DNA of 64,000 bases. Origin: Pirellulales bacterium. GTDB taxonomy: Bacteria; Planctomycetota; Planctomycetia; Pirellulales; JADZDJ01. Position numbers and translations under genes: made by a program. The stretch covers positions 1 to 64,000 of the forward strand of contig DASRSD010000128.1 of the NCBI GenBank assembly GCA_035656635.1, read 5' to 3'. The notes below the pieces were generated by a model that made no database searches, was not told the DNA's origin, and was given only the letters and a program-made list of their open reading frames with translations. Positions 14,517 through 38,277 of the stretch are shown piece after piece. Within the stretch, counting starts at the first letter, position 1; each line of letters begins with the position of its first letter.

Positions 14517-16316
14517 ATGAGCCGATTTTCTCTGGCACTGGCTGGAATTTTGTCGACCGCTGTGGCGACGATTGCCAGTGGGCAGTATCAGCAACCGTAT
14601 CCGATGTATGGCCCCGGCCCAATGTCGCCGGCCGCTTACGGACCTAACGGTGCAGGGCCAATGTACCCGCCGGCCATGTACGGCCAACCGGGAATACCGC
14701 CGGCGGCTTATGGCTATGGTGGAAACGGCATGCCTGGTGGAATGCCCGCCGCTTACAGCTACGGTCCGATGAACGGCGGAGGCATGTATCCAATGCCCAA
14801 TCAGGCGATGTACTCCGGGCCGGGATCTGCCGGCGCATACGGACCCGGCCCGATGGCGCCGGGAATGTATCCGGCAGCGGGCCAAAATCCGCAGGCAGCG
14901 AGCGCTTCAAACTCGAATCAATTCAAGAGCCAAACGCAACCCTCGGCGTATCCCAATGAATATCATGGACCGCAGGGGGCCGTTGCGAAGGCCAATCCGC
15001 CGCCCATGAAACTTCCGCCAGGCGTGCATACCGAAAACGGATTGCTGTTCTACAACGGCAGCGCCCGGGGCGACGTTAATTATCAACAGTATTCTGACAA
15101 AAATTCCGGCAATCCCAACCGCTTGGTGTCTTATCAGGCGGATGCCGAAGAAGGCGCGGGTTCCAACTCGCCGGGCAGCGTAATGACTCCGGGCGCCAAC
15201 CTCGGCGGACCCGGACCTGGCGGACCCGCACCTGGCGGAATGCAAATGGGTTACGCTGGTGGCGCTCCCGAAGGGAATGAAGGTTATGGCCCCGGCCAGC
15301 CGTGCGACAATCAATGCAACGATGGCTACAAAGGCTGCTGCTGCGGTTGTTGTAACTGGCTCTACAATTTCTGTCACGGCTCGATGTTCCCGGGAAAAAT
15401 GGGTTACGTGTGGAGCGCCGGCTGGGATAACCTGGCCATGACACGCAATGCTGGAACCAATCGAAATTTGGTGTTCCTCGATAACTTTGACGGTACTTAC
15501 ACGCCCGTGTTCAACTCCAATGAAGAAAAGTTTCAGTGGGACTACGGCGGTCGATTGCACATGGAGTTGATTGGTCCTAGCGGCATTACTTATCAGGCCA
15601 CGTATTCCAAAATTGCCACGTATGTATCGCAGCAAACCGAGGGCGTCATCGACATAGGCGGCAATCTCAACATTGCGCCGGGCGACCCATTGCTGGGCGG
15701 CCTAAGCACCGTACCGGGCTTTTTCGATGTCGACCAGGTCTTCTTGAAGTACACCAGCTCGATTCAGACCGGCGAGCTGAACATGATTTTTCCCGTGGGC
15801 AGCTTCGAGTTCGTTACCGGCTATCGCTACATGCAAATTGACGAAACCGCGCGGATCGACACTATTTCAACGGTCACGACGCCGGCATTCATTGACGACA
15901 GCAGCTTGAACCGCATGAACGGCGGACAAGTTGGCTTGTTGGGCCGGTGGGAAATGTTTGGCCTGATCGATTTCGATTTCGATGCCAAATTTGCTGTGAT
16001 GGCCGACTCCGTGACGACATCGCAATTTGCGATTGATGGAGCTACAGGCACTCCGGTCCCGCCCAGCGGCGTGCCCGAGGTTGCCGACAAAACCCGCGTG
16101 GCCTTCGTGACCGAGCTGGGTTTGCAAGGGGTGATTCCGCTCGGTTCGTCGTTCAGCTTCCACGCCGGCTATAACGTGTACTTTATCGACCATGTGGCGT
16201 TGGCGCCCGATCAATTCGACTTCATCAACATTGTGGCCGGCGGCCAAACCAATGTGAACAATCACGGCGATTTGGTCGTACAAGGTGTAAACGTGGGGAT
16301 GACTGCGGTATGGTAA
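14517..16316 (+). CDS. Outer membrane beta-barrel protein with Pro/Gly/Tyr/Met- and Cys-rich N-terminal region
   Basis: The 599-residue product starts with a signal peptide (LALAGILSTAVATIASG). Residues about 23-260 are low complexity, rich in Pro, Gly, Tyr and Met (PMYGPGPMSPAAYGPNGAGP and similar). A dense cysteine patch follows at about 262-287 (CDNQC, CCCGCC, C). From about 290 the sequence becomes alternating polar/aromatic strands (YGGRLHMELIGPSGITYQAT; GSFEFVTGYRYMQID; FSFHAGYNVYFID) ending MTAVW, as expected of an outer membrane barrel. It resembles the BBP7-type barrels of planctomycetes, but I cannot assign it firmly. The cysteine patch may be disulfide-linked in the envelope. Confidence 0.75.
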   Translation: MSRFSLALAGILSTAVATIASGQYQQPYPMYGPGPMSPAAYGPNGAGPMYPPAMYGQPGIPPAAYGYGGNGMPGGMPAAYSYGPMNGGGMYPMPNQAMYSGPGSAGAYGPGPMAPGMYPAAGQNPQAASASNSNQFKSQTQPSAYPNEYHGPQGAVAKANPPPMKLPPGVHTENGLLFYNGSARGDVNYQQYSDKNSGNPNRLVSYQADAEEGAGSNSPGSVMTPGANLGGPGPGGPAPGGMQMGYAGGAPEGNEGYGPGQPCDNQCNDGYKGCCCGCCNWLYNFCHGSMFPGKMGYVWSAGWDNLAMTRNAGTNRNLVFLDNFDGTYTPVFNSNEEKFQWDYGGRLHMELIGPSGITYQATYSKIATYVSQQTEGVIDIGGNLNIAPGDPLLGGLSTVPGFFDVDQVFLKYTSSIQTGELNMIFPVGSFEFVTGYRYMQIDETARIDTISTVTTPAFIDDSSLNRMNGGQVGLLGRWEMFGLIDFDFDAKFAVMADSVTTSQFAIDGATGTPVPPSGVPEVADKTRVAFVTELGLQGVIPLGSSFSFHAGYNVYFIDHVALAPDQFDFINIVAGGQTNVNNHGDLVVQGVNVGMTAVW

Positions 16317-16726: not shown

Positions 16727-18763
16727 ATGAGTACCGAACAATCGTATCAGCCCGAAATGGTCGATCAAACGCGGCAGCAAATCCGCGGGTTGGTCTCGGA
16801 AATCGAGGGGCTCGCCCGGGCGGAGGTTTCGCACGAAGAGTTTTATGAGGGGTTTCTACACCGTGTGGTGGCGGCACTGGCGGCCGTTGGTGGCGCAGTG
16901 TGGACGCTGGATGACGAAGGCCGGCTGACCCTTAGCGCCCAAATCAATTTGGCCGAAACTCGCTTGCACGAAAGCGAGGAAGAACAGCAACGCCACGGCA
17001 AGCTGCTGCGGAAAATTCTTTCCGGCGGGCAAGGCGCCGTTGTGCAGCCCAAGTACGTGAACGCGGAGGACGATTCGGCCAATCCCACCGACAGCTTATT
17101 GGTGCTGGGAATTCTGAAAAGCGATACGGAAACCCGCGGGCTGGTCGAAATTTTCCAGCGCACTGGCGGGCGTCCGGCCGTGGAGCGCGGTTATTTGCGG
17201 TTCGTGATGCAGATGTGCGATCTGGCGGAAGATTTTTTGAAGACCCGCCAATTGCGGTTGTACACCGATCGCCAGGCCATCTGGGCGCAACTGGAGCAAT
17301 TTACACGGCTGGCACATGGCAGCTTGGAGCCCCGCGCCACGGCCTACACGCTGGCCAACGAAGGGCGGCGGTTGATTGACTGCGACCGGGTGTCGGTGGC
17401 CATTCACAAAGGGCGCAAAAGCAAAATTGAAGCCGTGAGCGGCCAGGAAACTTTCGACAAGCGCTCCAACCAGGTGACGCTGCTGGGAAAGCTGGCCACG
17501 GTGGTGGTCCGGGCGGGCGAGCCGCTGTGGTACACCGGCGACACGCGAGATTTAGCGCCCCAAGTGGAAGAGGCCGTGGAAGCGTACGTGGACGAATCGC
17601 ATTCAAAAACCGTCGTCGTGTTGCCGCTGGCCAAGCCGCATGATGCGGAGGAGCACGAAGTCGAAAACGCTCCGCCGCACAAGCCGGAGTACATTGGTGC
17701 GCTCATTATCGAGCAAATTAACACTGATGGCATTCCCACCGCCATGCGCCGCCGGGTTGACGTGGTGTCCGAGCATGGCTGCACGGCGCTTTCGAACGCG
17801 CTGGAGCATAACAGCTTGTTTCTGATGCCGGTGTGGCGCACGTTGGGCAAATCACGATTGCTGGTGTCCGCCCGCACGCTCCCCAAAACTTTAGCGGCGA
17901 TTGTGCTGGTGGTGGTCGGCATCGCTTCGTTGTTCTTTGTGCCGGCGGAATTTCAACTGCACGGCAAAGGCACGCTGGAGCCCGTCGTCAAGCGAGACAT
18001 CTTCACGCAGACCGATGGCCAGGTCGTCAAGGTTTTGGTGAAGCATGGTGAAAACGTAAAAGCCGGCGATGTGCTGGTCGAGCTGCAAAACGATAAACTC
18101 GAAGAACAACTGTCCGAAAAAATCGGCCAGGAAACGGCCAACGAGCAAAAAATTCTTTATTTGGAAGATGCCGGCCACGATGCCCGGATGAGCGCCCAGG
18201 AACGCGCCAAAAACGAAGGCGATCTGGCCGTGGCACGGGCAAATCAAAAAGATTTCCGCAGGCAGCGGGAGCTGTTGGAAGACGAAAAGAAAAAATTGAC
18301 GGTGCGCAGCCCCATCGACGGCAAAGTAGTGACCTTCAAACTGGAGGATTTGCTCGCCAACCGTCCCGTGGAAAAAGGGCAAGTGTTGATGACCGTCATC
18401 GATCCGACCAAGGACTGGGAACTGGAAGTGCTCATGCCGGAAGACCGCATGGGGCACATTAAGCGTGCCCAGCGCGACCTGCACAAAAAAGATTTGGACG
18501 TGATCTACATGTTGCAGCAGAATCGGGGCAGCTGGTTGCACGGCACGATCAAGGAGGTGCAGGAAAAGGCGGAAGTGGAAGGAGAAGAGGGCAATACCGT
18601 CAAGGTGCTGGTCACCATGAACAAAGCGGATTTGGACCCCGATCTAATTACCAAAGGGGCGGGGGTCTCGGCCAAAATCGATTGTGGCCGCCGGAGCTTA
18701 GGCTACGTGTGGTTCCACGACGTATTAGAATTTATCCAATCGAAAATCTTATTCCGCTGGTAA
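16727..18763 (+). CDS. GAF-domain/HlyD fusion membrane protein
   Basis: The 678-residue product joins a cytoplasmic sensor-like half to a periplasmic adaptor-like half. Residues about 20-180 and 185-365 resemble two GAF-type domains (second: GRRLIDCDRVSVAIHKGRKS). A transmembrane helix spans about 386-405 (TLAAIVLVVVGIASLFF). Then follow a split biotinyl-lipoyl domain (about 424-455, DGQVVKVLVKHGENVKAGDV; about 523-560, SPIDGKVVTF) with a charged helical hairpin between, and a beta-barrel part. This is the architecture of a HlyD membrane-fusion protein with a cytoplasmic sensory head. The gene leads a three-gene run, with 40 bases to the next. Ligand and exporter partner are unknown. Confidence 0.85.
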   Translation: MSTEQSYQPEMVDQTRQQIRGLVSEIEGLARAEVSHEEFYEGFLHRVVAALAAVGGAVWTLDDEGRLTLSAQINLAETRLHESEEEQQRHGKLLRKILSGGQGAVVQPKYVNAEDDSANPTDSLLVLGILKSDTETRGLVEIFQRTGGRPAVERGYLRFVMQMCDLAEDFLKTRQLRLYTDRQAIWAQLEQFTRLAHGSLEPRATAYTLANEGRRLIDCDRVSVAIHKGRKSKIEAVSGQETFDKRSNQVTLLGKLATVVVRAGEPLWYTGDTRDLAPQVEEAVEAYVDESHSKTVVVLPLAKPHDAEEHEVENAPPHKPEYIGALIIEQINTDGIPTAMRRRVDVVSEHGCTALSNALEHNSLFLMPVWRTLGKSRLLVSARTLPKTLAAIVLVVVGIASLFFVPAEFQLHGKGTLEPVVKRDIFTQTDGQVVKVLVKHGENVKAGDVLVELQNDKLEEQLSEKIGQETANEQKILYLEDAGHDARMSAQERAKNEGDLAVARANQKDFRRQRELLEDEKKKLTVRSPIDGKVVTFKLEDLLANRPVEKGQVLMTVIDPTKDWELEVLMPEDRMGHIKRAQRDLHKKDLDVIYMLQQNRGSWLHGTIKEVQEKAEVEGEEGNTVKVLVTMNKADLDPDLITKGAGVSAKIDCGRRSLGYVWFHDVLEFIQSKILFRW

Positions 18764-18803
18764 GTGGCGACAATTCTTCGGCGGTTCACGACGAGGCTAT
18801 CTC

Positions 18804-19748
18804 ATGCGAATTATAGTGCTGACCGTTTCCGCTTGTTTGGCCTTGGCGGCGCTGGCTTGGGCGCAGCGTCCTGCCGCTTCCACCACGGCTTCCAATGCTC
18901 CTCCCGCTTCCTCAGGCGCCACTTCGCAGCCTGGTACGGTTACCCTCGATCACAGCGAGGTCCGTTTGGATGAAGAGGCCCAAGTGCCGGCGCAAGAAGC
19001 CGGCGTGTTGATGAAAATTGAAGTGCACGAAGGCGATCAAGTGCCGCTGAATACGCTGCTGGCTCAAATTGATGATGCTCAAGTGCAAAAGCAACTCAAA
19101 AACGCCACGGCAGAATATAACGGCGCCGCAGAAAAATCGAACAGTGACATTGATGTCCGCTATGCCACCGCAGCCTATGAAGTCGCAAAATTCGAATACC
19201 TGCGCTGCTTGGAGGCAAACAAAAAGCAGCCGTTGGCCTTTTCCGACGTGGAAATGGCGGAAAAGAAATTTGCCGCCGATAAAGCCAATCTCGCCATTGA
19301 GCAAGCCGGCAAACAACACATTGTCGATGGATACACCTCCGAAGCCAAAGAGGCCGAAGTAGATCTGGCCAAAGAAGCCATCAAGCGCCGTAAAATTACC
19401 TCGCCGATCGAGGGTGTTGTGCAGCAAGTTTACGCTCATCTCGGCGAATGGGTAAAACCGGGCGACGCGGTGGTGCGAGTCATTCGCATGGATCGCCTGC
19501 GCGTGGAAGGTTATTTGGACAAAGATAAATTCAGTCCCGGCGAAATCGCCGATCATCCGGTCGTGGTGCAAGCCGAATTAACCAACGGTCGCAAAGTGCA
19601 GTTTCCTGGAAAAATTGTGTTCGTCGATCCCGAAGTTCGCGGCGAAACCGAGTACACGGTTCGCGCCACGGTCGACAATCGCAAAGAGAACGGACAGTGG
19701 CTGCTCCGTCCCGGCATGCCTGCCGCCATGACCATTCAATTGAAATGA
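18804..19748 (+). CDS. HlyD/RND-type periplasmic adaptor protein
   Basis: A 314-residue exported adaptor. The signal peptide is MRIIVLTVSACLALAALAWA. The first lipoyl half is at about 55-90 (EAGVLMKIEVHEGDQVPLN), followed by a helical hairpin rich in Lys/Glu/Ala (about 90-190), the second lipoyl half (ITSPIEGVVQQVYAHLGEWV, about 195-222) and a beta-barrel domain. Adaptors of this kind bridge an inner-membrane protein to an outer-membrane channel, but no RND, ABC or TolC gene is adjacent. It sits between the GAF-HlyD and M50 genes, and an imperfect hairpin overlaps its stop codon. Confidence 0.88.
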   Translation: MRIIVLTVSACLALAALAWAQRPAASTTASNAPPASSGATSQPGTVTLDHSEVRLDEEAQVPAQEAGVLMKIEVHEGDQVPLNTLLAQIDDAQVQKQLKNATAEYNGAAEKSNSDIDVRYATAAYEVAKFEYLRCLEANKKQPLAFSDVEMAEKKFAADKANLAIEQAGKQHIVDGYTSEAKEAEVDLAKEAIKRRKITSPIEGVVQQVYAHLGEWVKPGDAVVRVIRMDRLRVEGYLDKDKFSPGEIADHPVVVQAELTNGRKVQFPGKIVFVDPEVRGETEYTVRATVDNRKENGQWLLRPGMPAAMTIQLK

Positions 19749-19805
19749 CCAAGCGCGAATGACCGATTGAAAAACCAGCCGATTGGTCATTGGTGCTTGG
19801 CCATT
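19744..19805. repeat. Imperfect 26-base inverted repeat within the operon
   Basis: The left arm, 19744-19769, and right arm, 19780-19805, are near reverse complements: both contain GGTCATT and GCTTGG when read in the same sense. The loop is about ten A-rich bases. The left arm includes the HlyD stop codon (19746-19748); the right arm ends 16 bases before the M50 start. The words AATGACC and GGTCATT recur in other intergenic repeats of the window. It could be a mobile short repeat, an RNA stabiliser or a partial attenuator. Confidence 0.75.
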
Positions 19806-19821
19806 CGTCATTTGCCTACCT

Positions 19822-22056
19822 ATGCCTAGTCTTGCCGACAGCTTAGTTTCCAGTTCTGCTCGGCCGCTGGCGATTCGCAAGCGGCCCGATTTGGAAGTTA
19901 CGCGCCAGCGGTACCAAGGACGGCAATATTGGATTGTGAAAGATCCTGTCGGGCTGAATTATTTTCGTTTTCAAGAGGAAGAATTTGCGCTGTTGAATTG
20001 GCTTGACGGGCACACCAGTCTCGACGATTTACGGGAACGATTTGAGGAAGAATTTGCGCCGCAAAAAATCACGCTGGAAGAGTTGGGCCGCCTGATCGGC
20101 ATGCTGCATCAAAGCGCGCTGGTGATCGCCGCCGTGCCGGGGCAAGGAAAGCAGCTGCTGAAGCTGCGGTGGGACCGCAAAAAGCGCGAATTCTGGGGCG
20201 CGGTTTCCAATCTCCTGGCGATTCGCTTCAAAGGCATCGACCCGGAACGGTTTTTCAATTGGCTGCATCCCAAAGTCGCTTGGTTTCTCAGCACGCCTGT
20301 CGTTTGCCTTTGCCTGTTGATGTTGGTTTCGGCCTTGACGTTAGTGCTGGTCCAATTTGACACGTTTCGGGCCAAGCTGCCGGAGTTTCATCAATTTTTT
20401 GGCCCGCACAACTGGATCGTGTTGGCCATCGCGATGGTTTTTACGAAAATTTTGCACGAGTTTGGCCACGGTCTTTCCTGCAAGCATTTTGGCGGCGAGT
20501 GTCATGAATTGGGCGTGATGTTCCTAGTGTTGACTCCCTGCCTGTATTGCAACGTGTCGGACTCATGGATGCTGCCCAACAAATGGCATCGCGCATTCAT
20601 TGGCGCCGCCGGCATGTATGTCGAAGTTTGCATCGCCTCCATTGCCACGTTCATTTGGTGGTTCAGCCAACCCGGCTTGCTGAACAATGTTTGCTTAAGC
20701 ACGATGTTTGTTTGCTCGGTCAGCACGGTAGTCTTCAACGGCAATCCGCTGTTGCGCTACGACGGCTACTACATTCTGGCCGACTTAATGGAAATTCCCA
20801 ACTTGCGTCAGAAGGCCACGACGATTCTCAACCGAAGGCTGGGTGAATGGTGCTTAGGGTTGGAGCAGCCCGAAGACCCGTTCCTTCCCACGCGCAATCA
20901 GTTTTGGTTTATGCTGTACTCGGTGGCGGCCTCGCTGTACAGCTGGTTCGTGATGCTTTCGATTTTGTATTTCTTGCTGCGCGTGTTTCAGCCGCATCGT
21001 TTGGAAATTTTCGGCTATATCATTGCCGCGGCGTCGATCGCCAGCCTGGTCGGTCGACCCGTGTACAGCATGGGCAAATTCTTTTATGTTCCCGGGAGGA
21101 TTGATGAAGTGAAAAAGCCCCGTTTTTACGCCACTTTAGCCATTGCTGTGAGCGTGCTGGCGGTCATTGTTTTCATGCCATTCCCCTACCACGTGTTTTG
21201 TACGCTGCACGTAGAGCCGCAAAATGCGGATTCGGTCTATGTGGATGTCAGCGGCGTGCTGGACTCCCAATACGTGCATGCCGGCGACATCGTGCAAGCC
21301 GGCGCGCCGTTGGCCGATTTGAAAAGTTCGGATTTGGAATTAGCCATCGCCGAATTGAACAGTCGCCACAACCAAATTCTGGCGCAGCTCAACGCCCTGC
21401 GAATGCAGCAGCACGACGACCGGAAGGCGGGCGATATTATTCCTGAAGCGCAAAAGCAATTGACGGCGATTGAAGAGCAACTAAGTAAAAAGCAGGCCGA
21501 GGCGCAACGCCTGCACTTGGTGGCCCATCGTGCGGGCGTGGTCATTCCGCCGCCGTCCGTTCCTAGTCATCCCTCGACCGATGGCAGACTAAACGCTTGG
21601 GAAGGCACGCCGCTGGACGAGCAGAATTTAGGCGCAACGCTCAAGCCCAACACGCTATTTTGCAAAATTGGCGATCCTGAAAAATACGAAGCGGTGCTGG
21701 TGGTCGATCAGTCCGAAATCGATCAAGTATTTGCGGGGCAGCACGTGAAGATTATGCTCGATGAACAACCCGGCGTCACGTTGCACAGCCAAATCGCTGA
21801 AATCTCGAGCGATCCGATGAAGGTGGTTCCCAAAGCGCTGTCGAGCAAAGCCGGCGGCAGCTTGGAAACGAAGCCAGACGAAAGCGGAATGCTCCGACCG
21901 GCCAACATTTCCTACGAAGCCCGTGTTCCGCTGCCTGACGACAACGACAATTTGCTCACCGGGCTGAAAGGGCAAGCCAAAATCGACGGCCCGTGGCATT
22001 CGCTGGGCTGGCGCGCCTGGCGATTCCTGCAAAACACCTTCCATTTCAAGTTGTAG
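19822..22056 (+). CDS. PqqD-like/M50 site-2-type protease/HlyD-like fusion membrane protein
   Basis: The 744-residue product has three parts. Residues about 15-110 resemble a PqqD-type peptide-binding winged helix (YFRFQEEEFALLNWLDGHTS). The middle is a polytopic M50 zinc protease with HEFGH at 212-216 (ligands H212, H216, catalytic E213) and the second motif NGNPLLRYDGYYILAD with D314. The C-terminal 260 residues follow a last helix and form a HlyD-like lipoyl and coiled-coil segment (DVSGVLDSQYVHAGDIVQAG; QLTAIEEQLSKKQAEAQRLH). Similar M50 proteins occur with peptide maturation and export systems such as Skf. The ATG at 19822 is preferred over an upstream TTG in the repeat. Substrate unknown. 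Confidence 0.87.
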   Translation: MPSLADSLVSSSARPLAIRKRPDLEVTRQRYQGRQYWIVKDPVGLNYFRFQEEEFALLNWLDGHTSLDDLRERFEEEFAPQKITLEELGRLIGMLHQSALVIAAVPGQGKQLLKLRWDRKKREFWGAVSNLLAIRFKGIDPERFFNWLHPKVAWFLSTPVVCLCLLMLVSALTLVLVQFDTFRAKLPEFHQFFGPHNWIVLAIAMVFTKILHEFGHGLSCKHFGGECHELGVMFLVLTPCLYCNVSDSWMLPNKWHRAFIGAAGMYVEVCIASIATFIWWFSQPGLLNNVCLSTMFVCSVSTVVFNGNPLLRYDGYYILADLMEIPNLRQKATTILNRRLGEWCLGLEQPEDPFLPTRNQFWFMLYSVAASLYSWFVMLSILYFLLRVFQPHRLEIFGYIIAAASIASLVGRPVYSMGKFFYVPGRIDEVKKPRFYATLAIAVSVLAVIVFMPFPYHVFCTLHVEPQNADSVYVDVSGVLDSQYVHAGDIVQAGAPLADLKSSDLELAIAELNSRHNQILAQLNALRMQQHDDRKAGDIIPEAQKQLTAIEEQLSKKQAEAQRLHLVAHRAGVVIPPPSVPSHPSTDGRLNAWEGTPLDEQNLGATLKPNTLFCKIGDPEKYEAVLVVDQSEIDQVFAGQHVKIMLDEQPGVTLHSQIAEISSDPMKVVPKALSSKAGGSLETKPDESGMLRPANISYEARVPLPDDNDNLLTGLKGQAKIDGPWHSLGWRAWRFLQNTFHFKL

Positions 22057-26914: not shown

Positions 26915-28594
26915 TTACATCGAAGCGAAGTAGTTGTCGAGCGCATCGCTGGAAGCATTGGCATCCGCGTCATGCAGAACATGGAAGTGATGCAAGGCGC
27001 CTTCATCGCTGGAATCGGAAGCAAACGGCAGCGACGCATCATCGTAGTGCAACGACGTCGCCTGCATCGCTGAGGGATCGGCGAGGAAATCGGCATCCGA
27101 ATACTGTCCCGACGCCAAGGCATTGTCGGCTCCAAAAGCACCGCTGCCGGCATCGACAGTAGACGCTATAGCAGCGGCCGCGCCAACGTCGGAGCCGCCT
27201 TCGGTGGCCATCGATTTAGCGAAGAAATAAAATACCCCCGGACTATTACTCAATGCCGGACGGGTGGGCGTGACGACCGTCGAACCGTTGAATGCCACCA
27301 AACCTGAAACCACTAAATTCGCCGCTGGAGCGCCTAAGCCGGAAGCCAAGTCGTATCCTTGGCCAGCGATGTTGCCGATGTTGTTTCCTGTCACGATATC
27401 GTGGAAATCGGCGACGGGCAGCTTGTAAACGATCGATTGAATATTGGCCAACGGCCCCTTACCGCTTAAAGCCCGGCCCTGATCGGCAATTGCAATCAAC
27501 GCAGACCACTGCGGTGCGCCGGCGCTGGTGCCACCGATAATTTCCCAGGGAGTGGTGGCGCCAAAGACGGCAGCATCTCGCACGGCGAAACCGGTGTTTG
27601 GATCGGCATTGTAAGAAACATCAGGAGTACCCCGGCCGGTCAACGTAGGAAGTAGCCCGGCATTGGTTGCCGTGTCTTGATATTGATAATTCGGCACGCT
27701 CTCCAGTGGAACACCGTTTACGATTGCACTCTCGCCACCGCCGCCGGCGTCGCCAGGACCATCGTTCCAAACTACTTGACTGGAAATGCTGTTATTGGGC
27801 GTAAGTTTTAAGCTGGATCCGCCGACACTGAGAACATTCGGCGAGGCGGATGGATAAGAAGCGGGCGCGCCGGTATCACCGGCGGAAAATACAAACTGCA
27901 CGGGCGCATGGCCGCTAGGTGTGGTAAATGAAGAATCGAGCGTACTTTCCCCCAACCCTTCGCCGCCCCCCCAACTGTTCGACACCACAACTACACCGGG
28001 CTGGCTCTTTGCATAGATGTCGCCCGCCATCAAATTTGCAGTGCTGTTGTTAGCGGTTTCGACAAGTAGAATGCTCGCCCCCGGAGCGATGCTATGCGCC
28101 CACTCCACATCCAACGAGATTTCCACCGACCAATCTGCATTGGCAGGAGGCAGTTGGGCGGAGTTGGACGAGCCGTTTTGGTTGACAATTCTAAAGCTCG
28201 GAGGGTCGGGAATGCCGAATTGCGCGTCGAATGCCTTCAGGTCGGCCGCAATGGTGGGAGAGCTAAACGCGTCAACAATGGCAATCGTGGTTCCGCTGCC
28301 GGTGGCTTTGACGCCACCTGGGAAGGTAATGCTGTTAAAGCCGTAGGCTTGACGGATTTGAGCAGGCGTGAACCCCGTTGGTCCAGCCGTTTGGTGCGGC
28401 TTCAAAACGGCATAATCAGGGCTCATGAAGACGTCCGCCAAACTTGCTAGCGACGCGCTGACTGCCGATGCGCTTAGCACCTGTCGAACTTCGAGCGGTT
28501 CGAACCGGCATTGCCGCCAGGCGCAAGAACGCCGGCGATGGATTCGGTTCGTGAAACGCTGGCCGTGAATATGCGGATTTTTGCGACGCGCCAT
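26915..28594 (-). CDS. Sedolisin-like (S53) serine peptidase with LEPR-XLL export motif
   Basis: A 559-residue secreted protein. The basic N-terminus leads to FEPLEVRQVLSA (31-42), a variant of the planctomycete LEPR-XLL motif. Residues about 75-430 form an S53 domain: catalytic E158 and D162 in SVEISLDVEWAHS, oxyanion-region SNSWGGGEG, and nucleophile S357 in IIGGTSAGAPQWSALIA. The calcium-site end FHDIVTGNNIGN and GYDLASGLGAP is also present. The large pro-domain usual in kumamolisins is missing; only about 30 residues precede the catalytic core. A 125-residue Asp/Ser-rich extension follows. It converges on the TatD gene 20 bases away. Confidence 0.88.
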   Translation of the reverse strand: MARRKNPHIHGQRFTNRIHRRRSCAWRQCRFEPLEVRQVLSASAVSASLASLADVFMSPDYAVLKPHQTAGPTGFTPAQIRQAYGFNSITFPGGVKATGSGTTIAIVDAFSSPTIAADLKAFDAQFGIPDPPSFRIVNQNGSSNSAQLPPANADWSVEISLDVEWAHSIAPGASILLVETANNSTANLMAGDIYAKSQPGVVVVSNSWGGGEGLGESTLDSSFTTPSGHAPVQFVFSAGDTGAPASYPSASPNVLSVGGSSLKLTPNNSISSQVVWNDGPGDAGGGGESAIVNGVPLESVPNYQYQDTATNAGLLPTLTGRGTPDVSYNADPNTGFAVRDAAVFGATTPWEIIGGTSAGAPQWSALIAIADQGRALSGKGPLANIQSIVYKLPVADFHDIVTGNNIGNIAGQGYDLASGLGAPAANLVVSGLVAFNGSTVVTPTRPALSNSPGVFYFFAKSMATEGGSDVGAAAAIASTVDAGSGAFGADNALASGQYSDADFLADPSAMQATSLHYDDASLPFASDSSDEGALHHFHVLHDADANASSDALDNYFASM

Positions 28595-29344: not shown

Positions 29345-32300
29345 ATGCTCCCGGAACAGCGCGGCTTGTTAACATCGTTTTTTAATCGGTTTCGCTCCAA
29401 GCGGCGCAGCGGCTGTAATACAGCCAGCAGCAGTAAACGCCGCAAGCAAGGCTTTGCGCGGCTCACGCAGTTGGAATCACTGGAAGATCGTCGGATGCTG
29501 ACGGCGACTCTGTACGTCGATTTTGGCCAACGATTGGGGAACGTTTCTCTCCCAGAAGATACCGTAGTTGATGGCGCGGCGGGCTGGTCTACCTTGGGGT
29601 TAGCTATTACGGCTAACAATCCGGTCGATTGGGTTTTTGGACCCGAGTTTCCCTACGCAGGCAATCCAACAATCACCTATACACCATTAAATATTCCGCA
29701 GAACTTGCCGACCAGCGTTTTCGATCCCGGCCCCGATCCTGCGGGAAGCCCGATTCAATTTCCAATTGGGCCGACATTGCCGCTGAGCGTTCAAGCAGCG
29801 GTTGAAAATTCAATTTTAGAGATTTTAGCCCGCGAAGTTGCGCCTTTTGACATGAATGTTGAGCTAGCGACCTCGCCGAACCTCGCCGCTGCTAGAGCGC
29901 TGTTAGCTTCTAATAATCGGCTCACCGATCCTAATCAAACTCTCGCCAACCCACCCAATGCGAATCTGTACAATCTGACCACTGCAAACCCCAAAGGATT
30001 TGTTCCCCCGGGCTTCGATGGCACACGGTTGAATACTCAGGCGGGCTTTACCTATGCTGCGTTAGGTTCCCCGGTAGGCACGCAGGACGTGTACATTTTG
30101 GTCGGCGGTTGGACCATTGGGGGCCAGGATGTCGGTGGACCGACACAAACCAACAGTCTTGGTTTTTCGGAACCGCACGGATTCACAACAACCATCGATC
30201 CTAACGATCCACTGTTTGGAGCCACGCCGGGCAACCCCATGGCGATGCCGCCGGTACCACCGACGCAGGCCATCCCCATCACTTATTCTGATGCCGGAGT
30301 GGCCGTCGATGCTGCCCAAATTTTGCAGCGAGCCTTGGCCGGGAGTTTGAAGCTGGACACGGCGATTTCCACGATTGCTGCGCAAATGGCGGCCATCACC
30401 TATGGCGGTGCATATGTCTTTACCGATCCGACAACGATGGTGCAGACCGAGGAGATTTTAGAGCACACCAATACCGGTGTCGCCAGTCCGGCAAATCCAT
30501 TCAGTGATCCGGATGTCAGTTTGCTCACCAGTTCTGACATCATGCGTGAGGGACCTGCCGAAAACGGACTTCCCGCCCCAACATTGAACAATGTTTCGGT
30601 GTTCACGCGGATGCCGCTGATGATTGGCGACGGCAACCAAGTTCCCACATTCGTGCAGAACGCTTACGACTTTTTCGCTAATGACCCCGATGTTGGGGCG
30701 CAATTGGGCACAGACCTCAATGCCCTGTCAGGATTTCCATTTAGTAAAGTGGCGTTTGTCACCGGCTCGGGAGCATTCGACGACGTTTCGATCACGAACG
30801 ATTTGGCAAATCCTGGAATGGCGCTGGTCACGGTGAATGCCTACCGCGACGCCACGTTTTCGCCAAACTCCTTTATTACGACATTTTCTTATGACGTCGA
30901 TTTAACGCCGGGTTTATTAACGACCAACGTGTTGCTGATTGAGCTGGGCAACAGCAATGATCAGCTCGACATTGATCCCTCGACAGCGAACCTGGCGGGC
31001 ACGGAAATTCTGGTGTTCGGCGGCGGTGGTGTGGATAACATGTCGCTGTTGGACAATGGCACGGATAGCATTTCGATGGCCCCCGAAAATGTGGACTTCT
31101 TTGAATATAGCCAAGTTGAACGCTTTGAAACCCAGCTGCAAATCAGCAATGGCGTAATCATTTTGGCGGATGAATTTGACGACACCAGCATTTTCCATTT
31201 GGAGGGCTTCAACTCGCTCACGTACACGATGCCGGAGTTTTTGGGAGACAATTTTTCGCTGACCGCGGAAGCCGGCTCGTCGCTGCCTTTGCCGCCTTCC
31301 AATAGCAGCGTTGACATGCTGTTGGACGGCACCGCAGGTCCGACCGCGGCCTCCCCGCTGATCAGCGTATGCAATGTAGAAATTACGGATGTTCCAAACG
31401 TTCTGATTCAGGATCCGATCGGCAGTTTTGCTGATACGTTTAGCATTACTTCCGATTTGGGTTTCTCGGATGGAATGCAAAATATTGAAATCAATTTGGG
31501 TCCCGGTGACGACACCCTCAATTTGTTTGGGACCGATTTCGCCTTCCAGGTTCCGGGGGGGGCGTTTACGTATGACGGTGGTTTGGGCACAGACACCATC
31601 AATGCCGAGGGTGATACCGACTGGGCCTTGTCCGATACCGAATTGACCGGCGCGGCCAGCGGGCTGGATTTGATTTGCCAGAACGTGGAAAACGCCAGCA
31701 TTACGGGCGGATTCAGCGACAATACGCTGGAAGTCGACAGTTGGGCTGGTCAGGCCAAGTTGGATGGCATGGAAGGCAACGACACGATTATCATTGGCGA
31801 TACGGTCAGCAGCGTTGTCAGCGGCAACATTACCGCCTTTGGCGGCGACGGGAACGATACCTTCTACGTCAATTCGTTTGTGCCCGGTTTCGATCCCATT
31901 ACGGGGACCATTAACACGTTGACCTTGAGCGGCGACAACGGCAACGACAATTTCATTCTGGGCAGAGACGCCATTAGCGGAGCGGGCGATTTGAACTCCA
32001 TCACCGGCAACGTCAACGTTACGGGAGTATCTGGCAACGATACGCTTACGCTGAACGATGCAAATTCCTCTGCAATCACAGTGCCCAACTACACGGTCGG
32101 CGCCAACTTTGTGACCGATGACGCTGGATTTGGACAAGCGAATTTCGACAATACCATCAAGAATCTAAAGATCATTGGGTCGACCGGAGCCAACGTGTTT
32201 GATGTCACGCCGAACCGTTCGACGAACATCAACATTGACGGCAACGATCCGCCATTCCCCCAACTGCCCGGAACCGGCGATGCGCTGGTCATTGAATTTT

Positions 32301-34081
32301 CGGGCGTTCAAGGGCAACAGTTGACGAAAGATAACCCGGCCGATGGCGGCGGTCGCTGGACATTCACCAGCGGTCAAAAGCCGGTCGTCTTCAGCAACAT
32401 CGAGGATTTGCAATCGTTCAATCCGTTGCAAAACGTTCCCTTGGTCGCCACGGGCGCGGTGGCGGGCAGTGGCAGCAAACCACTAGTTAAGGTTTATAAC
32501 GCCAGCAACAACGCGTTGCTGTTTAGCTTCTACGCCTTTGAGTCAACATTCACGGGCGGAGCCCGCGTGACCATTGCCAACGTCTTCGATAGCTTTGGCG
32601 CCCTGAGTGACGTCGAGCTGATCGTGGCGCCCGGAACGGGGCGCGTTGGCGAGGTGAAAGTTTACGACGGTCTGAAATTGTTGGCCGCTGCGCCATCTAA
32701 TTCCACACACCTGGTGGCTAATCCCGATGCGGATTTGATCAGTGACACGAGCGTGGCTTCCTCCAGTTTCTCGACGGTTCATAGCAGCAAAAACGCCAGC
32801 GCCGCCGGATTGGCAATTGGCGATGCGGTGGGCGGAACGAACGTTGCCGCAGGAACAACTATTAGTGCCATAAACGCCGCCGGCACCGGCCTCACGCTGT
32901 TTCCGAAAGCCACTGTTTCGGCCACGGCCAATGTCGTTGTGGGAGACTTGGTTAGCGCGACCATGACTGCCGGTAGCCAAGATGTTATGGTGGCCGATAC
33001 TTCCAGCCTCTCAATTGGCGACGCGGTTTTCGGAGCAAATATTCCGGCCGGGGCTACGATTATCGCCATTCCCGATCTCAACGATTTCTTGCTTTCGGCT
33101 CCTGCCACGGGTAACAGCACAAATAACGTGGTCATTGGTTCAATTGTGCTGAGTCTGAAGACTACAAAGAACAGTACCGCTGCAACCGTTTCCAGCGTTG
33201 TAAGCCTGGGCGGGTTGGTCGTGGGTCAATCGATTGTGGGGACCGATATTCCGTCGGACACGACCATTACCGCCATGAAAATTGGGCCGGCGCACACCAT
33301 TGCCGTCACGCTGTCGGCGGTGGCCAGTAGCACGGGCATATTTACCGCGTCGAACGCCGGGTTCTTGCCCGAGGGCGCCGCTTACAAAAGCGGCTTGTAC
33401 TTGGCGACAGGCGATTTCAACGGAGACGGCGCCGCAGACATCGTCACTTCGCGTTCCACAGGCGTTCCCATGGTCCGCGTGTTCGACGGTCTAACCTTTA
33501 CGCCGATGCTTTCGCCGGGCTTGGGGTTGCCCGTCGCGTTTAATCCCTACACCAGCAAATTCACGACGGGCGCTCAAATCGCCGTGGGAGATGTTGACGG
33601 CGATGGAATGCCTGATATTGTTACCGCGCCGGGCACTTCCCAATCTGCCCAAATCAAAGTGTTCAGCTTCAGCACGCTGGAAGATGATTTGGACGATCGG
33701 ATGACGCTGGCGCCGGTCAACTCCTTCCAGGGCTTTACGTCGGCGTTTAAAGGCGGAGTTTCCTTGGCGCTAGGCGATATTAACGGCGATGGCGTCGACG
33801 AAATTATGCTGGGAGCGGGCAGCGGCGGCGGCTCCAAGGTGCAAGTTTTCGACAACTTCGGCGACTTGATCAACCAGTTTGCGACCTTCACCAGCGGCAA
33901 CATTAATGCTCCGTTGTCGATCGCAACGGTCAATATCAACGGCACGGATGAACTGTTTGTCGGACAAGGCCTAGTCGGAAAAACGCATTTAGTGGAAGGG
34001 TTCAATCCACTTACCGGCAAGCTCGTCGATACGTTCCTCGAAGCCGATCCGGCAATGGCCGCGGGAGTATTTTTGGGTTAA
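29345..34081 (+). CDS. Giant LEPR-XLL surface protein with degenerate metzincin-like and FG-GAP domains (paralogue 1)
   Basis: An exported 1578-residue protein. A distinctive start (MLPEQRGLLTSFFNRFR) and basic linker lead to the export motif QLESLEDRRMLTA (42-54). Residues about 55-480 resemble a metzincin domain (VAPFDMNVELATSPN; Met-turn-like DIMREG at 398-403), but the zinc helix HExxHxxGxxH is not present. The middle (about 480-1010) consists of beta-rich Asp/Gly repeats (GNDTIIIGD, GDDTLNLFG). The C-terminal third has FG-GAP calcium-binding loops (GDFNGDGAADIV, GDVDGDGMPDIV, GDINGDGVDEIM), interrupted by a three-unit repeat. Likely a cell-surface adhesin or matrix protein. The next gene is its paralogue. 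Confidence 0.85.
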   Translation: MLPEQRGLLTSFFNRFRSKRRSGCNTASSSKRRKQGFARLTQLESLEDRRMLTATLYVDFGQRLGNVSLPEDTVVDGAAGWSTLGLAITANNPVDWVFGPEFPYAGNPTITYTPLNIPQNLPTSVFDPGPDPAGSPIQFPIGPTLPLSVQAAVENSILEILAREVAPFDMNVELATSPNLAAARALLASNNRLTDPNQTLANPPNANLYNLTTANPKGFVPPGFDGTRLNTQAGFTYAALGSPVGTQDVYILVGGWTIGGQDVGGPTQTNSLGFSEPHGFTTTIDPNDPLFGATPGNPMAMPPVPPTQAIPITYSDAGVAVDAAQILQRALAGSLKLDTAISTIAAQMAAITYGGAYVFTDPTTMVQTEEILEHTNTGVASPANPFSDPDVSLLTSSDIMREGPAENGLPAPTLNNVSVFTRMPLMIGDGNQVPTFVQNAYDFFANDPDVGAQLGTDLNALSGFPFSKVAFVTGSGAFDDVSITNDLANPGMALVTVNAYRDATFSPNSFITTFSYDVDLTPGLLTTNVLLIELGNSNDQLDIDPSTANLAGTEILVFGGGGVDNMSLLDNGTDSISMAPENVDFFEYSQVERFETQLQISNGVIILADEFDDTSIFHLEGFNSLTYTMPEFLGDNFSLTAEAGSSLPLPPSNSSVDMLLDGTAGPTAASPLISVCNVEITDVPNVLIQDPIGSFADTFSITSDLGFSDGMQNIEINLGPGDDTLNLFGTDFAFQVPGGAFTYDGGLGTDTINAEGDTDWALSDTELTGAASGLDLICQNVENASITGGFSDNTLEVDSWAGQAKLDGMEGNDTIIIGDTVSSVVSGNITAFGGDGNDTFYVNSFVPGFDPITGTINTLTLSGDNGNDNFILGRDAISGAGDLNSITGNVNVTGVSGNDTLTLNDANSSAITVPNYTVGANFVTDDAGFGQANFDNTIKNLKIIGSTGANVFDVTPNRSTNINIDGNDPPFPQLPGTGDALVIEFSGVQGQQLTKDNPADGGGRWTFTSGQKPVVFSNIEDLQSFNPLQNVPLVATGAVAGSGSKPLVKVYNASNNALLFSFYAFESTFTGGARVTIANVFDSFGALSDVELIVAPGTGRVGEVKVYDGLKLLAAAPSNSTHLVANPDADLISDTSVASSSFSTVHSSKNASAAGLAIGDAVGGTNVAAGTTISAINAAGTGLTLFPKATVSATANVVVGDLVSATMTAGSQDVMVADTSSLSIGDAVFGANIPAGATIIAIPDLNDFLLSAPATGNSTNNVVIGSIVLSLKTTKNSTAATVSSVVSLGGLVVGQSIVGTDIPSDTTITAMKIGPAHTIAVTLSAVASSTGIFTASNAGFLPEGAAYKSGLYLATGDFNGDGAADIVTSRSTGVPMVRVFDGLTFTPMLSPGLGLPVAFNPYTSKFTTGAQIAVGDVDGDGMPDIVTAPGTSQSAQIKVFSFSTLEDDLDDRMTLAPVNSFQGFTSAFKGGVSLALGDINGDGVDEIMLGAGSGGGSKVQVFDNFGDLINQFATFTSGNINAPLSIATVNINGTDELFVGQGLVGKTHLVEGFNPLTGKLVDTFLEADPAMAAGVFLG
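32755..33345 (+). repeat. Three 64-residue protein repeats inserted in the FG-GAP region
   Basis: Three consecutive units of roughly 193-207 bases (about 32755-32945, 32946-33138, 33139-33345). Each contains a motif of the form IGDAVxGxNIPAGTTIxAI: IGDAVGGTNVAAGTTISAIN, IGDAVFGANIPAGATIIAIP and VGQSIVGTDIPSDTTITAMK. They interrupt the stretch that in paralogue 2 passes directly from NPNAAILTDIT into an FG-GAP loop. Similar GxGIPxGTxV repeats are known in phage tail proteins and adhesins. Confidence 0.75.
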
Positions 34082-34548
34082 CGTGGTCGCCATGACGGCG
34101 GCCAAGCTGAATTCTTCCTGCCCCGAGGGGAAAAGGCGTTTTTTCAGGGAAAATCGGCGGTTTAATCAGAATTGTCGGAACTTTCATCATACTTATTGCG
34201 TTATTTAGAAAGCGCGTGCGTGTCAACGTTTTGCCGGGGTGGGATTTGCTTGACACCATGATTTGGCCTGATGAAACTAAAACTATGCGCGGCCAAGGGG
34301 CGCTGCGCGTAGAGGCACCCGGGAGATAGTTACGGAACAGACCGATTGGGCCCCCGCTAAGGGCCAATCGTTTTTGGGCGAAAATGCCTGTACACTTACG
34401 ACCAAAGTGGCACAGGCGGAGTGAAACAGTTGCGTCCCTCGCGGCGTGGCTGAAATTCTTCAACGAGTTCGCCCTGTCTGTCGGTTGCCACAACCCTGAT
34501 TGACCCGCGTTGAATTCACCCACTTTGGCCTTGTCCCACGGTATTGCC
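34082..34548. other. 470-base intergenic region between the giant paralogues
   Basis: No gene seen. It contains the intrinsic terminator at 34343-34376, leaving about 170 bases before the second giant gene, so each paralogue probably has its own promoter. A minus-strand frame over this region (34011-34601) is a shadow that overlaps both genes. Confidence 0.6.
34343..34376 (+). terminator. Intrinsic terminator between the giant paralogues
   Basis: CGATTGGGCCC (34343-34353) pairs with GGGCCAATCG (34361-34370) with one bulged G, giving a ten-pair stem and a seven-base loop. TTTTTG follows directly. This is the best stem plus T-tract in the window. It lies 260 bases after the stop of the first giant gene, leaving an unusually long 3' untranslated region if it serves that gene. 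Confidence 0.6.
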
Positions 34549-37500
34549 ATGCTTCCGGAACAAAGAGGTTTGCTGTCGGGGTTCTTTTCACGCTTCCGCA
34601 ATTCTAAACGCTATGGCCGCAAAGCGAAGAATCGTTTTCTATCCGCTGGCTGGCGCGCGGCTGTCGAGCCCCTGGAAGCCCGGCGGTTATTGGTCAGCCG
34701 CGTGTTCATCGATTTCGGCGATGCCTTTCCGGTGCAAGCGACCGGTCCCTTTGCGGGCACGCAGACCCTCCTCGCTATTACTGCCGCAACGCTGCAAACA
34801 AACCTTGTTGGGGTCGGCGGACAAGGCCAGACTGACCAAGATTTGTTGGGCGAGTTTGCCGCAACGCCAACGGGCGGTCTGGACTTGATGAGCTTCGCCA
34901 CCTTTTTGGATTCACCTGTGTTCAACCCACAGGGCTTAGCGCCGGCCGATCCCGCCACGCTAGAGGCTGCCATCGTCGAGCAGATCAAACAAGCATTGGA
35001 ACCATTTGATATTCAAGTGATTCCAGCCGATGGAAATCTCTCGAACTTCCCGGTAGCAACGCTGGCCGCTGCGGGGCGTCTGGAGGGGCTCAATAATCAA
35101 GTTGGCACGATTGGGGCACCAGCCGGAGATGCTTCAGCGACCGTGCTGCAATATGGCAGCGACGACGTCTACCTGTTCATTGGCGCCGAATATACGCTAG
35201 TGAACAACATTCCGGTGCCTGTGTTCGATTCCATCTCGGCCGATTTTGCCGTGAATGTGACGACGCCATTTTCTCAACCCAATCGGCTCGACTCGGGCGC
35301 TATTATCGACGCCAGTTACTTCCTCCAGCGCGTGCTAGGGAACGGTTCTGGCACAGGCACTCCCACAGACCCGGGATTAGGCTTTGGCGGTACGGGTGGC
35401 TCGTACAATATTGCGTTAGCGAATGCCTCGTTATACGCAATTGGTTGGGATTACGGTCTGTCGGAAGTTGAAAATGGCACGCCCGGACCGTTCACGAATT
35501 TTTTTGATCCCAACGTTCAACTGGTTAACCAAGCCGGCGCCATGCAGGAAGCCGGCTTCACCGAAGGTTTTTTTATAAATGGAGTTTCCCCCAGTTTGCC
35601 GATCAGCGACACGGAGCCGGCGTACTTTCCAAATTTCAACATGATGCAGGCGGGGATGGACTTCAATGCGTTCATGAAGAATCCCACGCTTGGCAATCCC
35701 TCGGAAGTGTTCTCGGAACCTTTCCCGTTGCCTCCGTTGACACAAGACACCACATTGATTTTTCCGCCTACCTTTAGCGTCAACACCGATCCGGCGGCCA
35801 CGGTGAATTTGTATCAGCAAATGGCCAGCGATCCCGATATCGGCCCGAATCCTGACGTCGTGGGCTACGTGACGGGAACCGGTGCGTACGATCAAATTTT
35901 CATTACGCGGCTGAATGCCACTCAGGCCAAAGTCACCGTCAATGCTTACACGGACGACACATACACCACGTTAGTCAGCCAGGCTGCTGCGGACGACGGC
36001 GACCCAGGCGTAGTCTCTAGCTACAGCTACACCATCAATCTCACCAAAACAGCGATTCCTGGTCGCAAGGACGATGGCAAAGCGCCCACCATTATTGTGG
36101 ATGGGCTCAATAACAATGACCAAGTCTTTCTGGACCCCACCCTGGGTGTTGGCGCCAAACCCGTACTGATTGAAGTTCACGGTGGTGCGGATGTGAAGAC
36201 GCTCAACATTACTGGCAATGGCACCTATAACGCGGTCTACACCCCGGCCCAGTCCACGGCTCCGCTAGGAACGAGCACAATTATTAACACCTATGCCGCC
36301 AGCCTCCTTCCGGAAGGCCTAATTCCCGGTGCGGCAGGGACCTTGGTGATCACCGGTTCGACGGTCGTTACGACCACCACGACGGTTGGCAAGAAAACTA
36401 CGACCACGAAGGCAACGCTGCCGGTCAAGACGACCATCATGCTCGACCATTTCAATCCAGGGAATGAAAGCGCGTTGCAGTTAGACGGATTCAACCAGCT
36501 CGATTATACCTCACCGGGTTTTACCAATAACGAATACAACGTGGTGGACATGCTGGATGGCTCGTGGCAGATATCCGGCCAGAACGACAGCACATTTAAT
36601 CCGCCTTCGCTCACCGGCAATTTGCAATTCAACAATATTAAGCAATTCATCGTCGACACGAGCAAAGGTGCAAGCACCGATACCGTCAGCTTTGCCACGT
36701 CCGACGAAGTGCCCACAGGCTTGCACTTGGTCAGCGTGGTGATGGGCGCCCAGGGATTTGGCGGCCAAGACGAACTCGATTTCAACGATTCGCTGAATGC
36801 AGATGGTTCGCCAAATTTGGAAGACCAGAATTACTTGATTTCCAGCACGCAGTTGCTGCCGGTGCAGTCCGCCGGTTCGGTGTTTACCGGCTTTACCTAT
36901 AGTGGCGTGGAATTGCTGACGCTGAACGGCACCCAGGGAACCGATCAATTTACCGTTACGCCCAGCACCAAAACCACGTACGTTATCAACGGTGATCCTT
37001 CCGCGGTGCAGAACACACTGGCGGTTCATTTGGCCGGCACGCAGTATCACGAATTCGACGACACCACGGGCAACGGCCAATGGTCGTTCGACAACCGCAT
37101 GCCGATTACGTTTACCAACATCCAGAACATCGTCAATCAATTTGGCAAAGACGGTGTGAACCCGGCAGATTACCAGTCGAATCCGGTGGCCGACAACGCC
37201 TCGCCAATTTATGCCGGCAGTGAGGATAGCGACATTCTGGCGGTGGCCGCCAGCTCCGACAGCGGTGTCAGCAAGCCGTTGGTCCAGGTGTATAGTGCCA
37301 TCACCAACAAGTTGCTGTATAGCTTCTATGCGTTCTCACAAACCTTTGGCGGCGGCGTACGGGTTACCACCGCCGACGTGAATGGCGATAACGGTGATGG
37401 AACTGGAACGCCGGACATCATTGTCGCCACGGGCGCCGGCACGCTGGGCGAAGTAAGGGTATTCGACGGCTTAACGCTGCAAAACGCTCCGAAAAATGCC

Positions 37501-38277
37501 GCAGGGTTGGTCACGAATCCGAACGCAGCGATATTGACTGACATCACTCCCGAAGCCGGATTCAAAAACGGCTTTAATGTAGCTTCGGCCGATGTCGATG
37601 GCGACGGCACCCCAGATTTGATCGTCTCTAACGGCAAGGGCGCGCCAACGGTCATGGTGTTCCTCAACAATGGATCGGGCGTCTTCAACGCCGCGCCAGA
37701 TACAACTTTTGCCGCTTATCCCAAAACCATGGTTTCGGGCGTGTTGGTGGCCGCGGGCGATGTCGATGGCGACGGCATTTCGGAAATTGTCACCGCTCCG
37801 GGCGTGGGGCAAGTGGCCTTAATCAAGGTATTCAGCTACGCCGATGTGTCGGCCAATCCGGCGGCAGCGCCGATTCGCCAATTCAATGGCTTCGAGACCA
37901 CGTTCAAAGGAGGCGTGTCGCTTACCATGGGCGACCTGGATGGCGATGGCCTGGATGAAATCATCCTTGGCGCCGGGCAAGGTGGGAAATCACGCGTACG
38001 GGTCTTCACCGGCAATACCGGCACGCTGGAAAGAGAATTCCAAGCGTACACCACCGGTAACATTAACGCTCCGGTGAAAGTTCTGGCCCGCGATATTGAT
38101 GGCAGCGGGGTTGCTGAGCTATATACCACGCCGGTCGGAACGGCTGTGACGCACACAGTGCAGTTGCTCGATCCGTTGTCGGTTACCAATCCGCTGGTGA
38201 CGCCGCTAATTGCTCCCTTGGTCGACACGATCATGGAGAGCGCCGCGGATATGAAAACCGGAATCAATCTGGGTTAG
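34549..38277 (+). CDS. Giant LEPR-XLL surface protein with degenerate metzincin-like and FG-GAP domains (paralogue 2)
   Basis: An exported 1242-residue paralogue of the preceding protein. The ATG at 34549 is chosen because MLPEQRGLLSGFFSRFR then matches the start of paralogue 1. The export motif is VEPLEARRLLVS (39-50). In the N-terminal domain, EPFDIQVIPAD and the helix Y296-A-I-G-W-D-Y-G303-L-S-E306 reproduce the spacing of the metzincin HExxHxxGxxH motif with only the Gly kept; AMQEAG (M332) is the Met-turn position. The rest is beta-rich sequence and four FG-GAP loops (ADVNGDNGDGTGTPDIIV, ADVDGDGTPDLIV, GDVDGDGISEIV, GDLDGDGLDEII). No 64-residue repeats are inserted. Probable surface or matrix protein. 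Confidence 0.85.
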   Translation: MLPEQRGLLSGFFSRFRNSKRYGRKAKNRFLSAGWRAAVEPLEARRLLVSRVFIDFGDAFPVQATGPFAGTQTLLAITAATLQTNLVGVGGQGQTDQDLLGEFAATPTGGLDLMSFATFLDSPVFNPQGLAPADPATLEAAIVEQIKQALEPFDIQVIPADGNLSNFPVATLAAAGRLEGLNNQVGTIGAPAGDASATVLQYGSDDVYLFIGAEYTLVNNIPVPVFDSISADFAVNVTTPFSQPNRLDSGAIIDASYFLQRVLGNGSGTGTPTDPGLGFGGTGGSYNIALANASLYAIGWDYGLSEVENGTPGPFTNFFDPNVQLVNQAGAMQEAGFTEGFFINGVSPSLPISDTEPAYFPNFNMMQAGMDFNAFMKNPTLGNPSEVFSEPFPLPPLTQDTTLIFPPTFSVNTDPAATVNLYQQMASDPDIGPNPDVVGYVTGTGAYDQIFITRLNATQAKVTVNAYTDDTYTTLVSQAAADDGDPGVVSSYSYTINLTKTAIPGRKDDGKAPTIIVDGLNNNDQVFLDPTLGVGAKPVLIEVHGGADVKTLNITGNGTYNAVYTPAQSTAPLGTSTIINTYAASLLPEGLIPGAAGTLVITGSTVVTTTTTVGKKTTTTKATLPVKTTIMLDHFNPGNESALQLDGFNQLDYTSPGFTNNEYNVVDMLDGSWQISGQNDSTFNPPSLTGNLQFNNIKQFIVDTSKGASTDTVSFATSDEVPTGLHLVSVVMGAQGFGGQDELDFNDSLNADGSPNLEDQNYLISSTQLLPVQSAGSVFTGFTYSGVELLTLNGTQGTDQFTVTPSTKTTYVINGDPSAVQNTLAVHLAGTQYHEFDDTTGNGQWSFDNRMPITFTNIQNIVNQFGKDGVNPADYQSNPVADNASPIYAGSEDSDILAVAASSDSGVSKPLVQVYSAITNKLLYSFYAFSQTFGGGVRVTTADVNGDNGDGTGTPDIIVATGAGTLGEVRVFDGLTLQNAPKNAAGLVTNPNAAILTDITPEAGFKNGFNVASADVDGDGTPDLIVSNGKGAPTVMVFLNNGSGVFNAAPDTTFAAYPKTMVSGVLVAAGDVDGDGISEIVTAPGVGQVALIKVFSYADVSANPAAAPIRQFNGFETTFKGGVSLTMGDLDGDGLDEIILGAGQGGKSRVRVFTGNTGTLEREFQAYTTGNINAPVKVLARDIDGSGVAELYTTPVGTAVTHTVQLLDPLSVTNPLVTPLIAPLVDTIMESAADMKTGINLG

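Follow-up and report, generated by a model that had tools for sequence, protein, structure and literature searches.

A GAF-HlyD, HlyD and PqqD-M50-HlyD operon of a Pirellulales bacterium as the probable core of a SecA2-linked secretion system for large LExR-leader proteins

Two earlier descriptions, one of a gene cluster and one of a sequence motif, bear directly on the operon considered here. Kamneva, Poudel and Ward (2015, PMC4452313) described a locus of Planctomycetes, Verrucomicrobia and Proteobacteria in which GAF/HlyD, HlyD and M50/HlyD proteins are encoded with a secondary SecA_DEAD protein, the SecA gene being unlinked to the locus in some genomes; the passages of that paper dealing with the locus propose a type-I-like role, call the biological role completely unknown and name no substrate. 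The motif, represented by Pfam Planc_extracel (PF07595) and NCBIfam LEPR-XLL (NF012209), is described in a section of PMC8567305, after Studholme 2004, as thought to be a novel N-terminal export signal, and is placed there in 52 Tuwongella proteins including 8 of the 10 longest. A third precedent is MpaP, an RRE-dependent M50 protease that removes daptide leaders (PMC10036551). The window analysed here is a stretch of 64,000 nucleotides from a Pirellulales bacterium (contig DASRSD010000128.1), and an initial annotation had presented its three-gene operon as a candidate undescribed membrane system. That description does not stand, since a 2015 paper had already reported the module along with a secondary SecA ATPase: the protein set and the domain fusions are the same, the three defining genes stand together in the window, and the operon is a member of the published locus in which SecA2 is unlinked. 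What differs is that the passages on the locus mention neither a PqqD domain nor an LExR leader. Our comparisons indicate a probable function: the operon would supply the core that spans the envelope in a type-I-like secretion system linked to SecA2, a system whose cargo would be large surface proteins carrying this leader.

The features of the locus are collected in Table 1. As initially read, three collinear genes on the plus strand, separated by 40 and 73 nt according to their ORF coordinates, each encode an HlyD-type part: Pfam places HlyD/biotin-lipoyl domains in all three products, and further gives the first a weak GAF match and the third an M50 domain. The fusion of HlyD to GAF-like domains in the first protein is likewise recovered in its AlphaFold model, which contains two GAF-like domains and a transmembrane helix at residues 385-404. 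Models of the first and third proteins (pLDDT 89.5 and 83.8) and Foldseek searches against the PDB, in which their adaptor parts resemble MacA, MexA and AcrA (E ~1e-13), confirm the adaptor identity of both at the level of predicted structure. The second protein scores 91.4 bits against TIGR01730, whose cut-off is 94.9, and the third gene has a second in-frame start codon, TTG at 19783, besides the ATG.

Table 1. Operon genes, domains, motifs and candidate substrates in the window
Feature	Coordinates	Strand	Basis
Gene 1: GAF-GAF-TM-HlyD protein, 678 aa	16727..18763	+	Pfam, AlphaFold, Foldseek, gene order shared by orthologues at most of 80 loci
Gene 1 parts: GAF-like 34-145 and 200-362; TM 385-404; periplasmic adaptor, short hairpin 456-522		+	AlphaFold
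Gene 2: HlyD/RND-type adaptor, exported, 314 aa, classical signal peptide MRIIVLTVSACLALAALAWA	18804..19748	+	Pfam, TIGR01730
Gene 3: PqqD/RRE - predicted M50 intramembrane metalloprotease - HlyD adaptor, 744 aa from ATG	19822..22056	+	
Gene 3, residues 14-103: winged-helix domain of PqqD/RRE type, putative site of leader binding	19861..20130	+	3g2b, PF05402 in homologues, fold
Gene 3, HEFGH zinc-binding/catalytic motif, residues 212-216	20455..20469	+	Alignments
Gene 3, NPLLRYDG, second M50 metal motif, residues 308-315	20743..20766	+	Alignments
Gene 3, periplasmic HlyD adaptor of M50 protein, residues 452-724	21175..21993	+	Pfam, PDB profile, Foldseek
Candidate substrate, 559 aa, leader ...RFEPLEVRQVLSA	26915..28594	-	Motif 28469-28531
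Candidate substrate, 1578-aa FG-GAP protein, leader ...QLESLEDRRMLTA	29345..34081	+	Motif 29447-29506
Candidate substrate, 1255-aa FG-GAP protein, leader ...AAVEPLEARRLLVS	34510..38277	+	Weak motif match 34654-34692, E 0.11

Assignment of the N-terminus of the third protein to the PqqD/RRE family is supported by several predictive comparisons. In a PDB profile search residues 10-102 match the PqqD structure 3g2b (E 0.003), PF05402 is found in 17 of 27 homologues, yet is absent from the window protein, and the AlphaFold model has a beta-beta-beta-helix-helix-helix fold. NF041824, the profile for the RRE-M50 daptide protease, matches residues 29-410 with E 8e-55 and 186.4 bits, against an equivalog cut-off of 300. 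The M50 domain (PF02163, present in 27 of 27 homologues) has both the HExxH and the NxxPxxxxDG motifs of an M50 (site-2) metalloprotease. Both histidines and the glutamate of HEFGH are invariant in three alignments, and NPLLRYDG, intact in the window protein, is invariant or nearly so in three alignments, a pattern that holds for HExxH and NxNPxxRxDG across planctomycete, alphaproteobacterial and E. coli homologues. Profiles, fold and alignments together confirm the initial reading of a PqqD-like module joined to an M50 protease with intact HEFGH and DG motifs. Conservation of the catalytic residues suggests that proteolytic activity is important and that the M50 protein is not simply a pore. 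One M50-HlyD paralogue, at G121:C5:46606-48822, carries two in-frame stops and is apparently decaying.

Most of 80 related planctomycete loci keep the gene order, a synteny that excludes a chance grouping; the three genes, initially read as a possible single complex, form one conserved module. The secondary SecA of the window genome (SecA2; ~650 aa, SecA_DEAD E 3e-111) is encoded on contig C144, outside the locus. Its gene lies immediately upstream of the module in several of the 80 planctomycete loci and directly beside the operon in relatives including G107, G097, G067 and L167, the last of which has a leader gene, SecA2, GAF-HlyD, HlyD and M50-HlyD one after another. No ABC, RND or MFS pump adjoins the operon in the window, as the initial annotation had also observed, and no ABC transporter was found in the conserved loci examined.

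Three genes 5-12 kb downstream of the operon encode proteins with an N-terminal, basic leader of the type found on large proteins, ending ExLExRxLL(S/T)A (fuller consensus phi-E-x-L-E-x-R-x-(L/M/V)-(L/M)-(S/T/A)-A; RRTYFESLEDRRVLTA is an example). Two of these large proteins have basic leaders ending FEPLEVRQVLSA and LESLEDRRMLTA, the third downstream leader is VEPLEARRLLVS, and the gene directly downstream of SecA2 in the window genome begins MTKRKHVRRWASENRGANLRPRRTYFESLEDRRVLT. The N-terminal 100 residues encoded at 29345 score 20.9 bits against PF07595 (E 3e-4; curated cut-off 25.5 bits), and the motif itself matches. The candidate substrates appear to carry the motif of PF07595 and LEPR-XLL (PMC8567305, citing Studholme 2004); what is added here is its link to the SecA2/HlyD/PqqD-M50 module, the texts read on the motif assigning it no export machinery. 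NF012209 (LEPR-8K) gave no match in the window genome, and because that profile fits proteobacterial leaders, a leader profile was built from local sequences (36 leaders, initially from SecA2-positive genomes), which has 29 matches in the window genome. The leaders have a median of 36 residues ahead of the motif, a median net charge of +8 and no hydrophobic core, with a maximum 12-residue hydropathy of 1.25 vs 2.1-2.8 for Sec signals. Long, basic and coreless, they differ from ordinary Sec signal peptides and would need a dedicated recogniser. The neighbouring FG-GAP paralogues at 29345-34081 and 34510-38277 share the start MLPEQRGLL, both have the leader, and they are probably tandem duplicates. 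The protein at 26915-28594 (minus strand) resembles a sedolisin-type (S53-like) peptidase by eye, with a GGTSAGAP stretch, and Pfam gave no support for this.

These observations bear on an arrangement close to the one initially suggested, in which the cargo is a small RiPP-like peptide and the pump's place is taken by the M50 protein itself, as in daptide or epipeptide systems. The resemblance of the RRE-M50 half to MpaP, which removes small-peptide leaders, would suit it, as would the absence of a pump gene beside the operon in the window. We consider it improbable nonetheless, given that SecA2 co-occurs with the module and is often adjacent, that the neighbouring frames with a common N-terminal motif are large rather than short peptides, and that the NF041824 match falls far under the daptide cut-off. 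SecA2 is found in 21 of 147 genomes, all with the M50 gene, which makes a dedicated SecA2 the likelier motor, and large surface proteins bearing an LExR leader are likelier substrates than peptide precursors.

Among the 147 planctomycete genomes, 34 have a strong PqqD-M50 profile match. SecA2, classified by protein length and full-length alignment, occurs in 21 of these 34 and in none of the 113 others (Fisher 7e-17); 13 M50-positive genomes are without it. True N-terminal leaders, with matches checked by reading the sequences outside the training genomes of the profile, are present in 17 of 21 SecA2-positive and 1 of 126 SecA2-negative genomes (Fisher 1e-17, relatedness uncorrected). Four SecA2-positive genomes (G034, G046, G071 and G085) have no leader protein by this profile. 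The sole SecA2-negative genome with a leader, G139, is a MAG with 6% contamination in which the leader gene sits on a contig of 6 kb, and one further genome (G022) has the M50 operon with neither SecA2 nor leader proteins. Profile matches in six genomes were discarded as lying mid-frame in long spurious frames, those in G071 and G141 running antisense to a real gene; keeping the six would have weakened the association. SecA2/M50 and LExR proteins could both simply be typical of certain planctomycete classes, a lineage effect to which the window's own class would contribute with 9 of the 21 SecA2-positive genomes. Kinship was handled by a family-level count alone, many SecA2-positive genomes coming from one class, and in that count, with training families excluded, leaders occur in 5 of 9 SecA2-positive vs 1 of 54 SecA2-negative families (p 1e-4). 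Persistence of the association across non-training families, together with physical linkage in Alphaproteobacteria and Enterobacteriaceae, leaves such an effect very unlikely.

Of eight SecA2 loci that were placed separately, four have a leader gene within ~10 kb, against an expectation of 0.31 if leader genes were evenly spread (P 3e-4); most planctomycete loci have no leader gene within 10 kb. In 12 of 14 plasmid loci of Alphaproteobacteria and E. coli, motif-bearing giant proteins are encoded next to the homologous operon, one giant being ~10 kb away. These proteins have 4-13 thousand residues, and the order, with variations, is giant protein, DUF3467, GAF/HlyD, PqqD-M50-HlyD, SecA, HlyD and TolC. 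Their motifs include METYEPRLLLSAD in Pseudohalocynthiibacter, FDTLEPRVLLNAD in Methylosinus, VEQLEPRLLLAAD in Alisedimentitalea, VEPIEPRILLSAD in Thalassospira, MEALEPRFLLSAD in Pseudosulfitobacter (12,918 aa, the longest), LDPMEPRVLLSAD in Pontibrevibacter and FESLEPRLLLSAD in Rhizobium. The loci examined include those of Phyllobacterium, where the operon adjoins a large motif-less protein, and Indioceanicola. In several Alphaproteobacteria (four loci) it is a small DUF3467 gene that separates the giant protein from the GAF-HlyD gene.

A sister type appears to operate without its own SecA, SecA2 having not been detected in the examined loci of Azospirillum, Tistrella and an E. coli plasmid. 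The giants of these loci, commonly DUF4347 proteins, have LEPRFMFDAA or LESRQLFDGA, the leader variant of this type being LExRxxFDA (for example LEPRxMFDAA). In four planctomycete loci without SecA2, LEERIVLDA, LEERIVFNA and LEDRVLFEA occur beside the M50 gene. E. coli plasmid NZ_CP081687.1 encodes a 4459-aa DUF4347 protein, TolC, two adaptors and M50-HlyD without SecA; the SecA-less version is present on E. coli and Citrobacter plasmids, and 18 E. coli records match. Since LExR is kept while the remainder of the leader varies by subtype, and the PqqD-M50-HlyD protein is common to both, the comparison points to this protein as the likely leader reader. One possibility is that the housekeeping SecA drives the SecA-less type. 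Association of some SecA-less M50 loci with LExR-variant giants means that SecA2 is not essential to the linkage, and, with the leader protein of the one SecA2-negative genome, would fit a different scheme in which LExR proteins leave through the usual Sec route, or some other one, and the module only processes them or anchors them at the surface, or serves a few of them. The leaders' lack of a hydrophobic core, the strong genome-level co-occurrence of leaders with SecA2, and the HlyD adaptors and adjacent proteobacterial TolC genes, which favour a trans-envelope conduit, make that scheme unlikely.

A TolC gene adjoins the module in Methylosinus, Thalassospira, Azospirillum, E. coli and the planctomycete G081. 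Neither the window's contig nor the one with SecA2 has a TolC-type gene, and several TolC-like genes occur elsewhere in the genome. The barrel gene at 14517-16316, initially raised as a speculative outer-membrane partner, belongs to BBP7 (Pfam); since no more than 6 of the 80 related loci have a BBP7-like gene less than 10 kb away, it was set aside and is a weak lead at best. BBP7-type barrel genes, including the one at L062:15612-17117, lie near the module in the window genome, in G107 and in those 6 loci, a frequency possibly above background. A 720-aa protein at L061:3390-5552 (minus strand), downstream of SecA2 and the leader gene, has a signal peptide, a long helical part and no family match. 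A TolC-like role, suggested by its sequence, was dropped, support from Pfam, PDB and phmmer all being absent.

The proposed secretion system takes as its ground the domains, the conserved operon, the co-occurrence with SecA2 and leader proteins across genomes and the physical linkage in many of them; the link between module and leader is correlative and the evidence wholly comparative. In the cytoplasm, the PqqD/RRE domain at the N-terminus of the M50 protein would bind the LExR leader, and the unlinked secondary SecA, judging from homology and co-occurrence, would provide ATP-driven movement. The M50 protein, with or without SecYEG, may make the membrane core, from which the three HlyD parts would build a periplasmic tube to a TolC-type outer-membrane channel. 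The M50 site is predicted to cut the leader near LL-S/T-A, as MpaP does to daptides, that enzyme being a precedent for both the binding and the cleavage steps, and the two GAF domains may gate or regulate the system. The initial suggestion that a PqqD-M50 unit recognises and matures a substrate crossing the envelope is plausible. On a broader proposal we are evenly divided: that this is a distinct Gram-negative secretion class in which the PqqD-M50-HlyD protein reads LExR and SecA2 with three HlyD parts moves giant proteins, alongside the SecA-less sister with LExRxxFDA leaders and DUF4347 cargo in Azospirillum and on E. coli plasmids.

No paper tying the leader to the locus was found in the open-access literature searched. 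The proposed system would join two orphans, an export-like motif recognised in 2004 on the largest planctomycete proteins and a SecA2/HlyD/M50 cluster described in 2015 without a cargo. If correct, planctomycetes and proteobacterial plasmids share a separate secretion route that combines a RiPP-style leader reader with a SecA motor, the surface proteomes of hard-to-study bacteria become predictable, and the model can be tested directly and simply.

Two further known systems resemble the module in part. With type I secretion (HlyB-HlyD-TolC) it shares HlyD-type membrane fusion proteins, an adjacent TolC gene in some relatives, and very large cargo that is sometimes Ca-binding or RTX-like. It differs in having SecA2 and an M50 protein and no ABC transporter, and its signal is N-terminal whereas that of type I substrates is C-terminal. 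With the daptide proteins MpaP/DapP (RRE-M50) and with YydH/LiaK it shares a site-2-type protease that carries an RRE/PqqD domain at its N-terminus. Unlike these, the third protein of the operon adds a C-terminal HlyD adaptor, scores below the daptide equivalog cut-off, and has large proteins rather than a peptide as its neighbours.
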